From Candidatus Acidiferrum typicum (GTDB lineage Bacteria > Acidobacteriota > Terriglobia > Acidiferrales > UBA7541), in the NCBI GenBank assembly GCA_025463055.1, contig JAOAPV010000129.1, positions 1 through 64,000 of the forward strand: a stretch of DNA of 64,000 bases. The letters are read 5' to 3'. Position 1 is the stretch's first letter. Every line of letters begins with the position of its first letter. The notes under the pieces were generated by a model that worked only from the letters and a program-made list of their open reading frames with translations, was not told the DNA's origin and did not search any database. This document shows positions 34,299-40,930 of the stretch, one piece after another. A program made the translations under genes and the position numbers.

Positions 34299-35141
34299 GT
34301 GGCAGACACTTCTTTCCAGGTAGCGGGTCAGCAAGCAGAACCTGTGGAACGCATTTCCATGGGCGCAGTGCTGACCGACGCCTTCAAGCGATTACTCGCA
34401 AACATTCAAGATTATGCGGAGATGTCCGGGCGGGCGCTTCTGAACCTGGCCAGCGGTCCGCGGTATTTCCAAGACATACTCGACCAAATGGACGACATCG
34501 GCGTGGGGTCGCTTCCCATCGTGTTGATGGCGGGCTTCTTCATCGGGGCCGTGATGGTGCTGCAGACGGGGTCGCAGTTCACGCGCTTCGGGCAGACGGC
34601 GCTTACCGGGGACGTGGTGTCCATCGCGCTGGTGCGTGAACTAGGACCGACGCTGACGGGAATTTTGGTGGCGGGGCGCTCGGCGTCGGGGATCGCGTCC
34701 GTGCTTGGCTCCATGGTGGTAACCGAGCAGGTCGATGCCATGCGCGCCATGGGCACGGATCCGAGCCGCAAGCTGGTAACGCCGCGAGTGCTGGCGGGAA
34801 TTTTGATGCTGCCTTTGCTGACTGCGCTGAACGATTTCGTTGGATTGCTGGGCGGCTGCCTGGCGTCGGTTTTCTCGCTGCGCTTGAATGCGGTGGAATT
34901 CTGGACGCGCGCGATCAACGCACTGGATTTTGCAGACATCATGCAAGGAATGATGAAGCCGCTGGTGTATGGATTTATCCTGGCGACGGTCGGATGCTAC
35001 AAGGGGTTGACGGTCCGCGGGGGCACGCAGGGAGTGGGCCGCGCAACCACGCAGGCCGTGGTGGTCGCGTCCGTGTTGATCATTGGCGCGGACCTGTTCT
35101 TGACCAAACTTGCGTTGTTCCTGGGAGACAAAATCTTTTGA
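34299..35141 (+). CDS. mlaE: MlaE-type ABC transporter permease
   Basis: 280 residues from GTG. It carries the whole MlaE pattern: GSLPIVLMAGFFIGAVMVLQ, VRELGPTLTGILVAGRSASG, and VTEQVDAMRAMGTDP followed by the last helices. It is the inner-membrane channel of the Mla (MCE) system that moves phospholipids between membranes. It is the first of three genes, and its stop overlaps the mlaF start (TTGA), so the set should be co-translated. Confidence 0.93.
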   Translation: MADTSFQVAGQQAEPVERISMGAVLTDAFKRLLANIQDYAEMSGRALLNLASGPRYFQDILDQMDDIGVGSLPIVLMAGFFIGAVMVLQTGSQFTRFGQTALTGDVVSIALVRELGPTLTGILVAGRSASGIASVLGSMVVTEQVDAMRAMGTDPSRKLVTPRVLAGILMLPLLTALNDFVGLLGGCLASVFSLRLNAVEFWTRAINALDFADIMQGMMKPLVYGFILATVGCYKGLTVRGGTQGVGRATTQAVVVASVLIIGADLFLTKLALFLGDKIF

Positions 35142-35977
35142 CGCCCTCTGCGCAAGAGCACGACACCTCCACAGTAGTGGCTTTCACAAACGTAAAAATA
35201 GGATTTGACGAAGGTGATGTGCTGCGCGGTGTGTCGTTCGAGGTGATGCCGCGAGAGACGGTAGTGTTGCTGGGCGAGACAGGGACGGGAAAAACTCTGA
35301 CGCTGAAATTGGCAGCGGGGCTGCTTCGTCCGACGGAAGGCAAGATCCAAGTGCTCGGCGAGGAAGTTTCGTCCATGAGCGAGAGGGAATTGCTGCCGTT
35401 TCGGCGGAAATTGGGATTTGTGTTTCAGGAAGGCGCGCTATTTGACTCGCTGACCGTGGCAGAGAACGTTGCATACCGGTTGCGCGAGGATCGACTCAGC
35501 GAGGATGAAATCGAGACACGTGTACAGGAAGCACTGCGCTTCGTGGAACTTGAGCACACAGGGGATATGCTGCCTTCGGAGCTTTCGGGCGGCATGCGGC
35601 GACGCGTCTCGATCGCGCGCACGTTGGCGACGCGGCCTCCGATAGTGCTATACGATTCACCCACCGCAGGACTTGATCCGGTCACGGCGCAAACGATCAT
35701 CACGCTGATCCTGCGGCTTCGGGATGTGTTCGGCGTAACGGCGATAATGGCCACGCATCGATTACAGGATGGATTTGGACTAGCGAACTTTCGATTCGAT
35801 CCGGAATCCAAGCGCGTAGTGCGCCTCGACGAGAAGGAAGGCGCCGCAGCGCCGAATGGCGAGCCGGCCACACGGTTTCTGGTTTATCGAGAGGGGCGGA
35901 TTTATTTCGAGGGTAAACCGGAGGAGCTGGCGGAGTCGAAGGATGCGTATTTGCAGCGGTTTTTGGCGTCAATTTGA
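35138..35977 (+). CDS. mlaF: MlaF-type ABC ATPase
   Basis: About 279 residues from the TTG at 35138 that overlaps the mlaE stop; a GTG at 35177 is an alternative. The Walker A is GETGTGKT, the Q-loop VFQEGALFDSLTVAENV, the signature LSGGMRRRVSIAR and the H-loop MATHR. Walker B reads VLYDSPTAGLDP: the catalytic Glu is replaced by Ser (codon 35657-35659). The neighbouring MlaE and MlaD leave no doubt about the role. If the change abolishes hydrolysis then the transporter would work with ATP binding alone or with another base. Confidence 0.92.
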   Translation: MTPSAQEHDTSTVVAFTNVKIGFDEGDVLRGVSFEVMPRETVVLLGETGTGKTLTLKLAAGLLRPTEGKIQVLGEEVSSMSERELLPFRRKLGFVFQEGALFDSLTVAENVAYRLREDRLSEDEIETRVQEALRFVELEHTGDMLPSELSGGMRRRVSIARTLATRPPIVLYDSPTAGLDPVTAQTIITLILRLRDVFGVTAIMATHRLQDGFGLANFRFDPESKRVVRLDEKEGAAAPNGEPATRFLVYREGRIYFEGKPEELAESKDAYLQRFLASI

Positions 35978-36020
35978 TAGGCTGTGTGGGCGTAAAAGCT
36001 AGCGAGGGCCGGAAGATTTC

Positions 36021-37106
36021 ATGGCGCAGCGCAAACAACTAACCTGGACGGAACTGCGCGTTGGGCTATTTGTGCTGGTCGGATTATTCGTGCTGGCGGT
36101 CGGAATCTTTTACGTGACCGGCGCGAATTTTATTGGCCCGAAGTATCGGCTGAAAACGTATTTGCCGGAAGTGTCGGACTTAGCCATCGGAGCGCCGGTA
36201 CGCGTGGATGGCGTGGAAGTCGGAAATGTGGAGTCCATCCGGCTGGTGCCGCGGACGCCGGGGCACGTTCCGGAGAAGAACAGAAACATTGAAGTAGTGA
36301 TGCGCATCGACCGGAGATTCCAAAACGACATCTTGACTGATTCGACGGCAAGCCTGGTGACGGAAGGCTTGCTGGGCAATCGAGTGGTGAATATAACGCG
36401 CGGCTTCACGGGCGTGCCACTTAAAGAGGGCCAAGAAATCACTGGGGTCGAAGAGAAGGCCATCAAGCAAGTGGTCGAGCGCAGCGCCGACGTCCTGGCC
36501 AATTTGCAGGCGCTCTCGGATACTGCCAAAGATTTGCTGGCGGGCGTGCAGGAAGGCCAAGGAACATTGGGTAAGCTGCTCACGGACGATCAGGCGTACA
36601 AGAACCTCAATAGCGTGCTTGCCAAAACAAACCAGGTGGTGAGCGACATTCAGGCAGGGAAGGGCACGCTCGGCAAGCTGGTGGCTTCCGACGAGCTGTA
36701 CGGTAAGGTGAACACCACGGTCGATAACGTCAACACGATTATGAGCGACGTGCGCAGCCAGAAGGGTACGTTGGGCAAGCTGCTGTACGATCCGTCGCTG
36801 TATGACGAAGCTAAAAAGGCTTTGAGCAGCGGCAACGCAATGATCAGCGACGTGCGCGGGGGCAAAGGTACGCTTGGCAAGCTGGCCACGGACGATGTCC
36901 TCTACAACAAGCTAAGAGACACGAGTACGAACCTGGCTGATGCTACGGCGAAACTGAACGACAACACGACGAGCGTCGGAAAAATGTTTTCCGACCCAAA
37001 GTTATACGACAATTTGTCCGGCCTGACGGGGGACCTGCGCCTGTTGATCGGCGATTTTCGGCAGAACCCCAAGAAATTTCTGCACTTCAAGGTCACGATA
37101 TTTTGA
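36021..37106 (+). CDS. mlaD: MlaD-type MCE protein with 34-residue repeats
   Basis: 361 residues. A membrane segment (about 13-34) leads to one MCE domain (about 38-140: RLKTYLPEVSDLAIGAPVRV...VTEGLLGNRVVNIT). After a helical linker, five copies of a 34-residue repeat begin at residues 181, 215, 249, 283 and 317, each opening GTLGKL (the last as TSVGKM). MCE domains bind lipid in the periplasm and pair with MlaE. The repeats are not part of a standard MlaD and probably form a helical stalk. It is the third gene of mlaEFD. Confidence 0.92.
   Translation: MAQRKQLTWTELRVGLFVLVGLFVLAVGIFYVTGANFIGPKYRLKTYLPEVSDLAIGAPVRVDGVEVGNVESIRLVPRTPGHVPEKNRNIEVVMRIDRRFQNDILTDSTASLVTEGLLGNRVVNITRGFTGVPLKEGQEITGVEEKAIKQVVERSADVLANLQALSDTAKDLLAGVQEGQGTLGKLLTDDQAYKNLNSVLAKTNQVVSDIQAGKGTLGKLVASDELYGKVNTTVDNVNTIMSDVRSQKGTLGKLLYDPSLYDEAKKALSSGNAMISDVRGGKGTLGKLATDDVLYNKLRDTSTNLADATAKLNDNTTSVGKMFSDPKLYDNLSGLTGDLRLLIGDFRQNPKKFLHFKVTIF
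36561..37010 (+). repeat. Coding tandem repeat of 34 codons in mlaD
   Basis: The GTLGKL box recurs every 102 bases at 36561, 36663, 36765 and 36867, with a divergent copy at 36969. Protein spacing is exactly 34 residues each time. The DNA is less alike than the protein, so the repeat is old. Confidence 0.8.
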
Positions 37107-37195: not shown

Positions 37196-37975
37196 GTGCC
37201 GACAAACGTGATGGATACGCAGGATCAGCAGCAGAAAACGGCTCCGCGCCAGGACGCGGCAAAATCGACGCTGCCACAGCCGGGGCGGCCGGTCCCGAGC
37301 CGCGCGTATCCCGGGGCGCTAATCGTGGTCGAGGGTACGGACGGCTCGGGCAAGAGCACGCAATTGTATTTGTTGAAGCGCTGGCTGGAGATTGGCGGGT
37401 ACCGACTGCATTTCACGGAATGGAACTCTTCGCCGCTGGTGAAGTCCGCTACCCGGCGCGGGAAACAGCGGCGGCTGCTTACGCCGACAACGTTTTCGTT
37501 GCTGCACGCCGCGGATTTCGCGGATCGCTGCGAGCGGCAGATTATGCCGCTGCTTCAAGGCGATTATCTTGTGCTCGCCGACCGCTACATCTATACGGCA
37601 TTTGCGCGTGATGCCGCCCGCGGCTGCCCGCCGCGCTGGCTGCGCAATCTTTATCGGTTCGCGCCAATTCCGGATATCACGTTTTATTTTCGTGCGCCGC
37701 TTGATGTTGCCGTAAACCGTATTCTCAGCGGCCGTCCGAAGCTTAAATACTACGAAGCGGGAATGGATCTGGGATTGTCATTCGACCGCTCAGAGAGCTT
37801 TCGCTTGTTCCAGGGGCGCATCCTGGAGGAATACGACAAGATGGTGGATACGGATAACTTTGTTGTCCTCGATGGCACCATTCCCGTCAACAAACTGCAA
37901 AAACAGATGCGCGATATTGTGGCCTCTAAAATTGACCTAAAGCGGTTCGCGCCTCGCGTGGCCGAGGCGGAATAG
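37196..37975 (+). CDS. Thymidylate-kinase-like P-loop kinase, first of a tandem pair
   Basis: 259 residues from GTG (an ATG five codons on is also possible). The P-loop LIVVEGTDGSGKSTQ (about 42-56) is the Tmk form. DRYIYTAFARDAARG corresponds to the Tmk DRY/DRF region, and the sequence is otherwise divergent, with no typical RxxR lid. A 40-residue polar N-terminal extension precedes the kinase fold. It may phosphorylate dTMP or another nucleotide; a separate canonical tmk was not seen in the window. It is one base upstream of a second, related gene, then Ppx/GppA and SixA. Confidence 0.75.
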   Translation: MPTNVMDTQDQQQKTAPRQDAAKSTLPQPGRPVPSRAYPGALIVVEGTDGSGKSTQLYLLKRWLEIGGYRLHFTEWNSSPLVKSATRRGKQRRLLTPTTFSLLHAADFADRCERQIMPLLQGDYLVLADRYIYTAFARDAARGCPPRWLRNLYRFAPIPDITFYFRAPLDVAVNRILSGRPKLKYYEAGMDLGLSFDRSESFRLFQGRILEEYDKMVDTDNFVVLDGTIPVNKLQKQMRDIVASKIDLKRFAPRVAEAE

Positions 37976-37976
37976 C

Positions 37977-38825
37977 ATGTCTGACCAGGAAAAAGACAAA
38001 GACAAGCCGACGCCCCCCGGAACCGCAGTCTCGGACGCCACATCCGCGCCGGTGGCCGGCGCCGCGACGAAGACTGCCACCGAAGAAGAAGCCTCGCAAT
38101 ATTTTTATGGTGAAGCACTAGTCGGCTTCGATCCCAGCGAAATCACCGGCAGCTTGATCGTCATCGAAGGCATGGACGGTTCCGGCCGGTCGACGCAAAT
38201 TACCCTATTGCAGGAGTGGCTCGAGTCTGAAGGTTTTGCGGTGCAGACAAGCGGTCTGCGGCGTTCGAATCTGGTTGGACGCGACATCGATCAGCTGCTA
38301 GCGAAAAACGCGGTAACCCGGCTGACCCTTTCCCTAATGTATGCGACGGATTTTTTCGATCAAGTGGAGCATCGCATCCTGCCCGCGCTGCGTTCCGGCA
38401 CTGTCGTGCTCGCTGACCGTTTCATTTTCACCTTGATCGCGCGCGGCGTCGTGCGCGGCATCAATCGCGACTACATCAGCGGCCTGTACGCGATGGCGTT
38501 GCGTCCTCATCTCACTTTTTGGCTCAACGTGCGTCCGGAAACCGCCTTCGCCCGTGAATTCAAGAAAGCGCAAGCGATCAGCTATTGGGAAGCTGGCCGC
38601 GACATGTCCCTTTCACACGATCTGTATTGGTCGTTCATTCGCTACCAGACAATGATCAAGCGCGAGTTTGAAGTTATGGCCAAGCGCCACAACTTTATTG
38701 AGCTCGACGGAGAAGCGAGCGTCTCGGCGGTCAACAAGCTGCTGCGCCAGCGCATTGCCGAGCAGTTAGGCATCCGAGCCACGAAGTACACTCCCTCCGC
38801 TGCGCTGGCACATCTCTGGCGGTAA
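37977..38825 (+). CDS. Thymidylate-kinase-like protein with altered P-loop, second of the pair
   Basis: 282 residues. It begins with a charged, Ala/Thr-rich stretch, then LIVIEGMDGSGRSTQ (about 61-75): the Walker A Lys is Arg71 (codon 38187-38189, CGG). ADRFIFTLIARG matches the DRF motif of the first copy's DRY. The two proteins share the same helical order (YEAGMDLGLSFD versus WEAGRDMSLSHD), so they arose by duplication. The change probably weakens ATP binding; it could be a regulatory partner of the first protein. There is one base between the two genes. Confidence 0.72.
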   Translation: MSDQEKDKDKPTPPGTAVSDATSAPVAGAATKTATEEEASQYFYGEALVGFDPSEITGSLIVIEGMDGSGRSTQITLLQEWLESEGFAVQTSGLRRSNLVGRDIDQLLAKNAVTRLTLSLMYATDFFDQVEHRILPALRSGTVVLADRFIFTLIARGVVRGINRDYISGLYAMALRPHLTFWLNVRPETAFAREFKKAQAISYWEAGRDMSLSHDLYWSFIRYQTMIKREFEVMAKRHNFIELDGEASVSAVNKLLRQRIAEQLGIRATKYTPSAALAHLWR

Positions 38826-38834
38826 ACTCTGCGC

Positions 38835-40385
38835 ATGTCTGAGCCGGTCCACATCGCCGCGATCGACGCCGGCTCTAACGCAGTGCGGCTTTCTGTTGCG
38901 CGTGCTTATTCTGCGTTGGACATCGAGCCTCTGCATAGCGAACGCTATTCGCTGCGACTCGGCGAGAGCGTGTTCGTTCGTCACCGTTTCAGCGAAGACA
39001 TTCTAAAGAAGGGCGTGAAAGCGTTTCGGCACTTCAAGGAAATCATGGACGAGTTCGGCGTGACGCGCTATCGCGCTGTAGCTACGAGCGCTTCACGCGA
39101 GGCACGCAATCGCGCCGCGTTCGTCAGGCAAATCAAGCAGAAGGCGGGCATTGCGCTGGAGGTGGTCAGCGGTACGGAGGAATCTCGTCTGGGCAGGGAA
39201 GCGGCCATTGCCGCGCTCGGACCGGAATCGCCTCCGCGCTGCATCGCCGATCTTGGCGGCGGCAGCCTGGAAATAAATATTCTTCGCGATCACTCTGTCG
39301 AACAAAGCGCGCAATTGCCAGTGGGCACGGTGCGCCTGATGACCACACTCAATCTCCCCGGCGTAATTCGTCCCGCGCAAGAGGAGCAGGTGAAGCGCTA
39401 CGTGCGAGCGTTGTTGGAGTCGCGCCTTCCCTCGCGGCCCAACCTTGCGGAAAGCATCGCCGTGGCGCTGGGCGGCAACGCGGAAACTCTTATGGCCGTC
39501 GCGCCCGGTCCGCGCGAGCACGGGGTCCCGACCTTGCAACTCTCGCTATTGCGCGAGCGCCTGGACGACATTTTGCGCCGCGACGTTCGCGAGCGGATGA
39601 AGGCGTACGCGGTGCGACGAGACCGCGCTGATGTAATGGCCATCGCTGCGATCACGTTCGTGACGCTGGGCCGCTATCTTAATCTGCGCACCCTTTCGAT
39701 TCCGGGCGTTGGGATTCGCGAAGGCCTGCTGCAGGAAATCGCGCGCGATGCGTTCTCTCGCAAGGAGCCGCATCGTTACAATGCGGCCGCGCGGCAACTC
39801 CTGGTGGGTACGCGCAGCTTCGCGCGACGGCTAGAGTACGACCAGCGCCATGCCGAGCACGTTCGCGAGCTGAGCATCCTGCTTTTCGACAAGCTGCAAC
39901 CTGTGCATCATCTGCTGGCAGAATCGCGCGTGTTGCTCGAAGCCGGGGCGCTGCTCCACGACGTTGGCCACATGATCAGCCACCGTGGGCATCACAAGCA
40001 CGGCGAATACCTTGCGCTCAACGGAGATATCCCGGGCCTCGAGGGCCGCGACCGTGCCGTAGTCGCTGCGGTGGTTCGCTATCACAATCGGAAGTCCGAG
40101 CCTGCCGGGCACCATACCGCGTATGCTTCGCTGAATAACAACGATAAGCGCATGGTCCGCCGACTGGCTTCCATTCTTCGCATTGCGGAGGCTTTAGATC
40201 ATTCGCACCGCCAGCGTGTGACGAATCTCGACGCTTCTTTCCAGCGCGGTGCGGTGGGTGTGCAGGTCAGTGCGCGCGGCGACGCCGCCGAAGATCTTCG
40301 TGATGCCAATCGCAGCGCGGAACTCTTCGAAAAAGAATTTCATGTGCGCATGTATTTCCGGCAAGCTGGAGCTGCCCGTTTGTAG
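38835..40385 (+). CDS. Ppx/GppA phosphatase with C-terminal HD domain
   Basis: 516 residues. The N-terminal two-thirds are the Ppx/GppA actin-like fold: AAIDAGSNAVRLSVA, YRAVATSASREARN, GTEESRLG, ADLGGGSLEI and LPVGTVRL. The rest is HD-like: EAGALLHDVGHMISHRGHHKHG with the HD pair and later histidines. It hydrolyses exopolyphosphate or the pppGpp gamma phosphate; the sequence alone does not decide. It is nine bases downstream of the tandem Tmk-like pair and 47 bases upstream of sixA, probably one operon. Confidence 0.9.
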   Translation: MSEPVHIAAIDAGSNAVRLSVARAYSALDIEPLHSERYSLRLGESVFVRHRFSEDILKKGVKAFRHFKEIMDEFGVTRYRAVATSASREARNRAAFVRQIKQKAGIALEVVSGTEESRLGREAAIAALGPESPPRCIADLGGGSLEINILRDHSVEQSAQLPVGTVRLMTTLNLPGVIRPAQEEQVKRYVRALLESRLPSRPNLAESIAVALGGNAETLMAVAPGPREHGVPTLQLSLLRERLDDILRRDVRERMKAYAVRRDRADVMAIAAITFVTLGRYLNLRTLSIPGVGIREGLLQEIARDAFSRKEPHRYNAAARQLLVGTRSFARRLEYDQRHAEHVRELSILLFDKLQPVHHLLAESRVLLEAGALLHDVGHMISHRGHHKHGEYLALNGDIPGLEGRDRAVVAAVVRYHNRKSEPAGHHTAYASLNNNDKRMVRRLASILRIAEALDHSHRQRVTNLDASFQRGAVGVQVSARGDAAEDLRDANRSAELFEKEFHVRMYFRQAGAARL

Positions 40386-40432
40386 CTCGCACACAATGAA
40401 TTTGCAACCAGCTCACTTGAAAGGCCACGCTC

Positions 40433-40930
40433 ATGCAGCTCTACATCGTCCGCCACGGCATCGCCATCGATCGCGAAGACCCGAAATCTCCATCGGAGGC
40501 TGATCGGTATCTGACCGAGGAAGGTATCGAGAAAACCAAGCAAGTGGCTAAGGGGATTGCCGCTCTGGGTTTACACGCGGACTTGATGATCAGCAGCCCG
40601 TACGCGCGTGCAATGCAAACCGCCGCTATTTTCGCCAGCGCGCTCGAGTATCCGAAGCAAAAAATTCGGCAGAGCGATAGTTTGCTTCCCGGAGCCGAGC
40701 CCACGGCGCTCTTACGCGAGCTTGCGAGAGAGAAAAACGTTTCGTCCGTATTTTGCTTCGGTCACGCTCCCCACGTGGATGGTCTGCTTGCTGCTGCTGT
40801 TGGGACGCCGCATCAGATCACCTCGATGAAGAAGGCGGGGGTTGCTTTCGTCGAGCTAAAGCGCTTGTTGCCTCCGAACGGCCAGCTCGTGTGGCTCGCC
40901 ACGCCGAAGCTCATCCGCAAATCGAAATAA
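40433..40930 (+). CDS. sixA: SixA-type histidine phosphatase
   Basis: 165 residues. Histidine phosphatase core: the RHG motif in YIVRHGIAI, the conserved arginine in SSPYARAMQTA, GAEPTALL, and FCFGHAPHVDGL with the second catalytic His. SixA removes phosphate from phosphohistidine proteins such as ArcB or PTS components. The cluster with Ppx/GppA suggests a link to polyphosphate or phosphate signalling, as in CHAD-associated sets, but no CHAD gene is in the window. It is the last gene of the Tmk-like/Ppx run. Confidence 0.88.
   Translation: MQLYIVRHGIAIDREDPKSPSEADRYLTEEGIEKTKQVAKGIAALGLHADLMISSPYARAMQTAAIFASALEYPKQKIRQSDSLLPGAEPTALLRELAREKNVSSVFCFGHAPHVDGLLAAAVGTPHQITSMKKAGVAFVELKRLLPPNGQLVWLATPKLIRKSK

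Follow-up and report, generated by a model that had tools for sequence, protein, structure and literature searches.

Whether an organism stores polyphosphate is usually judged by its ppk genes, and a known polyphosphate gene set that includes ppk was reported for 21 of 50 metagenome-assembled genomes (MAGs) of Acidobacteriota (PMC8100337). Polyphosphate is reported to accumulate in some Crenarchaeota (PMC7831078), for which PPX homologues were described in Sulfolobales, with the statement that PPK1 and PPK2 homologues were not found (PMC6864096). According to a figure legend in PMC10892726, a Sulfolobales gene cluster holds SixA, PPX, a deoxythymidine monophosphate (dTMP) kinase and CHAD, the last of these described as a polyphosphate-binding module (PMC6537752). 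As far as the citing papers describe it (PMC11677633, PMC13318637), the crenarchaeal synthase was reported by Hofmann et al. (2024 preprint; J Biol Chem 2026, 302:111283) as a distinct third polyphosphate kinase, the archaeal family 3 PPK, with the S. acidocaldarius enzyme. Here, we describe two adjacent genes, A and B, in a stretch of 64,000 nucleotides of Candidatus Acidiferrum typicum (assembly GCA_025463055.1, contig JAOAPV010000129.1, positions 1 to 64,000; hereafter the window). They form a kinase/pseudokinase-like pair whose conservation and link to polyphosphate metabolism are well supported, because the Lys/Arg difference between them is fixed and because of the order of the two genes, their coupling, their neighbours and their phylogenetic profile. 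We consider it likely that A and B are the active and the pseudokinase subunit of a polyphosphate kinase with a thymidylate kinase (Tmk) fold, and in many Acidobacteriota the pair seems to take the place of the enzyme that usually makes polyphosphate.

The locus comprises four open reading frames, all on the plus strand and separated by 1, 9 and 47 bases, at the positions given by an initial annotation of the sequence. Gene A (37196-37975) encodes a Tmk-fold kinase of 259 residues with an intact Walker A motif (GTDGSGKST, Lys53), the proposed catalytic subunit; its start is uncertain, either GTG at 37196 or the in-frame ATG at 37211. Gene B (37977-38825) encodes a paralogue of 282 residues with the same fold and Arg71 in Walker A, the proposed pseudokinase subunit. 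Both matched Pfam Thymidylate_kin (PF02223; 67.4 bits for A and 71.4 for B, cut-off 27), and both passed only just the thymidylate kinase model TIGR00041 (84.6 and 85.8, cut-off 83.25). PF02223 was the sole hmmscan match of A and B at E<=0.001, with none to the PPK2 (PF03976) or PPK1 (PF02503) model. The third gene (38835-40385; 516 residues) is a Ppx/GppA phosphatase with domain III/HD by Pfam and a probable exopolyphosphatase; its top model is the exopolyphosphatase TIGR03706, yet it scores under that model's cut-off (197.5 vs 307). The fourth (40433-40930; 165 residues) is a SixA-type histidine phosphatase (Pfam His_Phos_1; NCBIfam SixA 80.1, cut-off 74.5). The reading frames and domain models thus bear out what the initial annotation had described, two Tmk-like genes one base apart, a Ppx/GppA-HD gene nine bases past B, and SixA.

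A tblastn search of 199 Acidobacteriota genomes revealed two adjacent strong matches (at least 113 bits) in 30 genomes from 13 families. A scan with one genome per species, which detects close relatives only and says nothing against the pair in other phyla, gave 67 loci, 53 of the window kind (L035-L087) and 14 ordinary Tmk-like. The records of the 53 are titled Acidobacteriota or its subgroups, save L039 (Betaproteobacteria) and L074 (Bacillota), which are probably misnamed MAGs. Throughout these 53 and 30 distant loci A lay upstream of B wherever both were present; the contigs of L066 and L087 start after A, and A is cut in L055. Except for loci cut by contig ends, a Tmk-like gene of this kind was always paired with a second one here. 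In half of the distant loci (15/30) the stop of A shares four bases with the nearest start of B, which suggests translational coupling, and no A-B fusion was flagged among the loci with two readable copies.

Our alignment drew on 84 loci (the window, the 53 of its kind and the 30 distant ones) and, after near-copies of the window had been thinned and one cut row dropped, held 46 rows of A and 45 of B; nine ordinary Tmks served for comparison. The Walker A position is Lys in 46/46 A rows (in the window the AAG codon at 37352-37354, motif GSGKST) and in 9/9 ordinary Tmks, and Arg in 45/45 B rows (CGG at 38187-38189, motif GSGRST). In the rows examined B is kept and no copy restores the lysine, and the presence in every B row of the arginine that had been noticed in the window rules out a sequencing error, an artefact or a one-off mutation.

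B also departs from A in the lid. In the window this region of A (37718-37768) holds Arg175, Arg180, Lys184 and the motif EAGxD at residues 187-191, and B has Ala198 and Ser202 opposite Arg180 and Lys184. The Arg180 site is Arg in 46/46 A rows and in 7/45 B rows; the Lys184 site is Lys in 45/46 A rows and in none of the 45 B rows, 44 of which have Asp or Ser. B retains the DR motif (Asp129-Arg130 in A, 37580-37585) and three other arginines, Arg156, Arg160 and Arg193, each in 45/45 rows. A basic strip at residues 83-93 of A (37442-37474) is a candidate polyphosphate track: position 90 is Lys in 46/46 A rows, and positions 83, 87, 88 and 92 are Lys or Arg in 44, 45, 41 and 42 of them. Among these five positions, ordinary Tmks are usually basic at 87 only. 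The strip is mostly lost in B, where position 90 is nonetheless Lys in 21/45 rows. As in bacterial Tmk, A has the fold, Walker A and the DR motif; it differs at the sites EPGG, AADR and AY, which we take to be dTMP contacts of Tmk. The nine ordinary Tmks have Glu in seven, Pro in nine and Gly in six and six at EPGG, Arg in nine at AADR and Tyr in eight at AY, whereas all 46 A rows have WNSS, Phe and Arg.

AlphaFold models of A and B have Tmk folds (mean predicted local distance difference test score 89.4 and 88.4). For both proteins the top solved structure, by sequence and by structure, was ST1543 of Sulfolobus tokodaii (2plr, 4nzy, 4rzx, 5h70). Its sequence matched A with 206 bits (E 5e-60) and B with 138 bits (E 3e-39), against 55 and 53 bits for the next Tmk; its structure matched A with a VIA Z of 27.4 (root mean square deviation 1.6, 207 aligned) and B with a VIA Z of 27.1 (1.8, 203 aligned). 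No PPK2 structure was among the best 50 structure matches listed for A or B, which excludes nothing. WNSS, DRYIYTAxARD and EAGxD are common to ST1543 and A, and the legend cited above gives the Sulfolobales cluster the same set of neighbour genes as the A/B loci. In a 65-row tree A formed one group (support 87/88) and B another (100/99), and ST1543 joined A at 87/88, an open fork with a long branch. Distances between A proteins and between B proteins were correlated (r=0.90, permutation maximum 0.23, 36 pairs), a correlation that shared descent alone yields; B was the more divergent in 96.5% of comparisons.

The archaeal family 3 PPK is probably an ST1543-type protein, and the pair, found in Acidobacteriota whereas ST1543 is archaeal, is probably the bacterial branch of this family. 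The archaeal enzyme may be Tmk-like. Because of this PPK family the pair is not categorically new; of the new system that the initial annotation had thought plausible, the conserved pair stood, and the newness is weakened by the likely archaeal counterpart. Among the open-licence papers listed for this subject, no title or abstract opening concerned such a pair in Acidobacteriota, which is weak evidence of absence.

The neighbourhood points to polyphosphate. Ppx lies downstream on the same strand in 53/53 window-kind loci; within 6 kb, 50 of these loci, some of which are cut, have SixA and 38 have CHAD. Ppx, CHAD or SixA was found within 6 kb in all of these and in 24/30 distant loci, so the linkage to ppx and sixA that had been noted in the window recurs far beyond it. 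The gene order of the distant loci is reshuffled: often Ppx directly precedes A, CHAD lies after B, or SixA is the neighbour of B. PhoU occurs within 6 kb in 4/30. That the same genes recur in varied orders and in many families speaks more strongly for a common pathway than a single conserved operon would. At five ordinary tmk loci and at five loci with a degenerate B, none of these three genes occurred within 6 kb; these controls are small, and the search models were built from proteins of the loci themselves. CHAD and PhoU neighbours were confirmed with Pfam on representatives; counts of PstB were left unused, as its model had two seeds and could pick up any ABC ATPase.

Ppx/GppA enzymes can hydrolyse pppGpp, and the third gene carries an HD domain, so the operon could act in nucleotide signalling, for example in (p)ppGpp turnover through this GppA-like gene. 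We consider this very improbable, as polyphosphate-binding CHAD and PhoU recur as neighbours and the gene fits TIGR03706 best, though below cut-off. The initial annotation had placed a kinase/pseudokinase in polyphosphate or nucleotide signalling; the tie to polyphosphate gained from the fixed residues, gene order, linkage and profile, while nucleotide signalling gained nothing.

Two other genes were seen at these loci. Downstream of SixA, on the opposite strand, L067 (9597-11336) and its cluster mates encode CHAD followed by a Ppx-III/HD-like domain in one protein (domains checked in L067). In L116 (11397-11777) and similar loci of families f5, f18 and f32, a gene of about 100-165 residues, without a Pfam match in the one tested, follows B and precedes a metallophosphoesterase or CHAD gene.

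We compared the occurrence of the pair with that of PPK1, PPK2, Ppx, CHAD and Tmk. PPK1 was found in 105/199 genomes, 2/30 with the pair against 103/169 without it (Fisher p 1e-8); these genomes are not independent, and a hand count by genus gave a weaker 3/21 against 57/99 (p 5e-4). Families f25, f29, f33 and f47 mix members that have the pair without PPK1 and members that have PPK1 without the pair. Among the 94 genomes lacking PPK1, Ppx occurred in 23/28 with the pair and 7/66 without it (p=2e-11), and CHAD in 25/28 and 5/66 (p=9e-15). Either of the two was found in 28/30 pair genomes, 94/103 with PPK1 only and 10/66 with neither. Ppx lay within 8 kb of the pair in 19/25 genomes having both, and within 8 kb of PPK1 in 21/82. 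This profile suggests that the pair does the same job as PPK1. The fold and mechanism of PPK1 are unrelated to those of the pair.

PPK2 occurs in addition to the pair in 24/30 pair genomes. The window genome has one PPK2. Six pair genomes lack both PPK1 and PPK2: G028, G074, G118 (86% complete) and three of one genus, including G123. These counts bear on whether the pair mainly consumes polyphosphate, phosphorylating nucleotides at its expense as PPK2 does. The fold is common to Tmk and PPK2, and in a Dali table for FtPPK2 the nearest structures, PPK2s aside, are those of ST1543 (PMC4748334); the class II PPK2 PA3455 is described as having one inactive and one active domain (PMC8776046), like the halves proposed for A and B, although A and B are two genes with no fusion flagged and no Pfam PPK2 match. 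A mainly consuming pair is nonetheless quite improbable, since the pair avoids PPK1, the main synthase, and not PPK2, and the six genomes without either enzyme would be left with no known polyphosphate source.

A separate Tmk was present in 25/30 pair genomes, which disfavours a simple duplication of tmk. The window genome is one of them: its other Tmk (G000:C3) is ordinary but divergent, with a neighbour that reads as YggS-like. A further weak Tmk-family match in this genome (G000:C82:52891-53355, 27 bits) reads as a deoxynucleoside kinase (IEGPLRVGKST) and has a glycosyltransferase-like gene at the same locus. It is unlikely that A is a thymidylate or other nucleoside monophosphate kinase with B as its regulatory paralogue and the linkage a matter of nucleotide/phosphate housekeeping. 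The passed TIGR00041 cut-off and the five pair genomes without another clear Tmk would fit such a kinase, as would ST1543, which was deposited as a dTMP kinase; the separate Tmk in the other 25, the replacement in 46/46 A rows of residues presumably typical of the dTMP site, and the strong profile with Ppx and CHAD and against PPK1 argue against it.

The polyphosphate kinase proposed here has to be weighed against several points besides the small controls, the non-independent genomes and the dTMP kinase label of ST1543. The exchange of Lys for Arg is no proof that B is inactive. Six distant loci (L104, L120, L123-L125, L131) have no Ppx, CHAD or SixA within 6 kb, five of the 30 pair genomes have no Ppx, and neither CHAD nor PPK1 had a match anywhere in the window genome, of which the missing CHAD counts against the proposal. 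G018, G032, G109 and G136 show just a weak match to another Tmk, and G005 shows none; in these five genomes A may act on dTMP, in addition to its proposed role or in place of it. The missing tmk of G005 may be due to an assembly gap, because its contig stops about 0.6 kb past B, and a member of the same family, G021, has tmk about 7 kb away on that side. The window's own order shows no exclusion between the pair and PPK1: of its 95 genomes, 82 have a match to A at E<=1e-30 (at least two matches in 78), and PPK1 occurs in 26/95, of which 25 are among the 82. In this order the pair is the constant part and PPK1 an addition to it, which weighs against simple replacement, and their coexistence there rules out a strict exclusion of PPK1 by the pair. 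Within the window's family, all ten genomes of genus g130 with four A matches, an apparent second pair, have PPK1, as do 2/8 with two A matches.

If the pair is a polyphosphate kinase, A would transfer the gamma-phosphate of ATP to the end of a polyphosphate chain through its normal P-loop, or catalyse the reverse. B, a paralogue without the Walker A lysine and two basic lid residues that keeps the DR motif and other arginines, would be non-catalytic; it would pair with A in a Tmk-type dimer and hold or guide the chain. The inactive and active domains of PA3455 offer a precedent for this layout. Ppx of the same operon would degrade the chain, CHAD, in relatives, would bind it, SixA may be an accessory phosphatase, and the pair would be the polyphosphate synthase in lineages without PPK1. 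Whether the pair goes as far as a third bacterial polyphosphate synthase, in which a Tmk-fold kinase forms an obligate heterodimer with its Arg-P-loop pseudokinase and the latter holds the growing chain, present in Sulfolobales too and having replaced PPK1 several times in Acidobacteriota, we regard as evenly balanced. Should the pair be the synthase, PPK1-less Acidobacteriota, including the three genomes of one genus that have no PPK2 either, would be mistaken for organisms that cannot make polyphosphate, and the 'thymidylate kinase' labels of the pair genes would be wrong. The phylum would also offer a natural system for a fixed Lys-to-Arg pseudokinase working with an active paralogue.

The degenerate-B clade used as a control comprises L127 and L133-L136 (G116:C37, G131, G107, G167 and G062). 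Its kinase, A3, has GSGKTTQRK or GSGKSTQRK, KWNSS/RWASS and EAGQD, and in 4/5 loci it is followed by a gene, B3, in which P-loop and DR motif (AAPY) are both gone. That this clade is the same system is not supported, given its neighbourhoods (Ppx, CHAD or SixA in 0/5) and the presence of PPK1 in 3/4 genomes with this clade only. Genes that read as sucAB-like lie upstream of A3 in L134 and L135.

No phage match was found at E<=1e-8, and a plasmid search returned eight plasmid records with at most 33% identity, of which five carry a tmk annotation. Directly upstream of A, the window carries MCE/Mla-type transporter genes (34299-37106; MlaE, MlaF and MlaD-like by reading), and MCE/Mla-type gene clusters lie likewise upstream in L040, L045, L048, L067 and L081.

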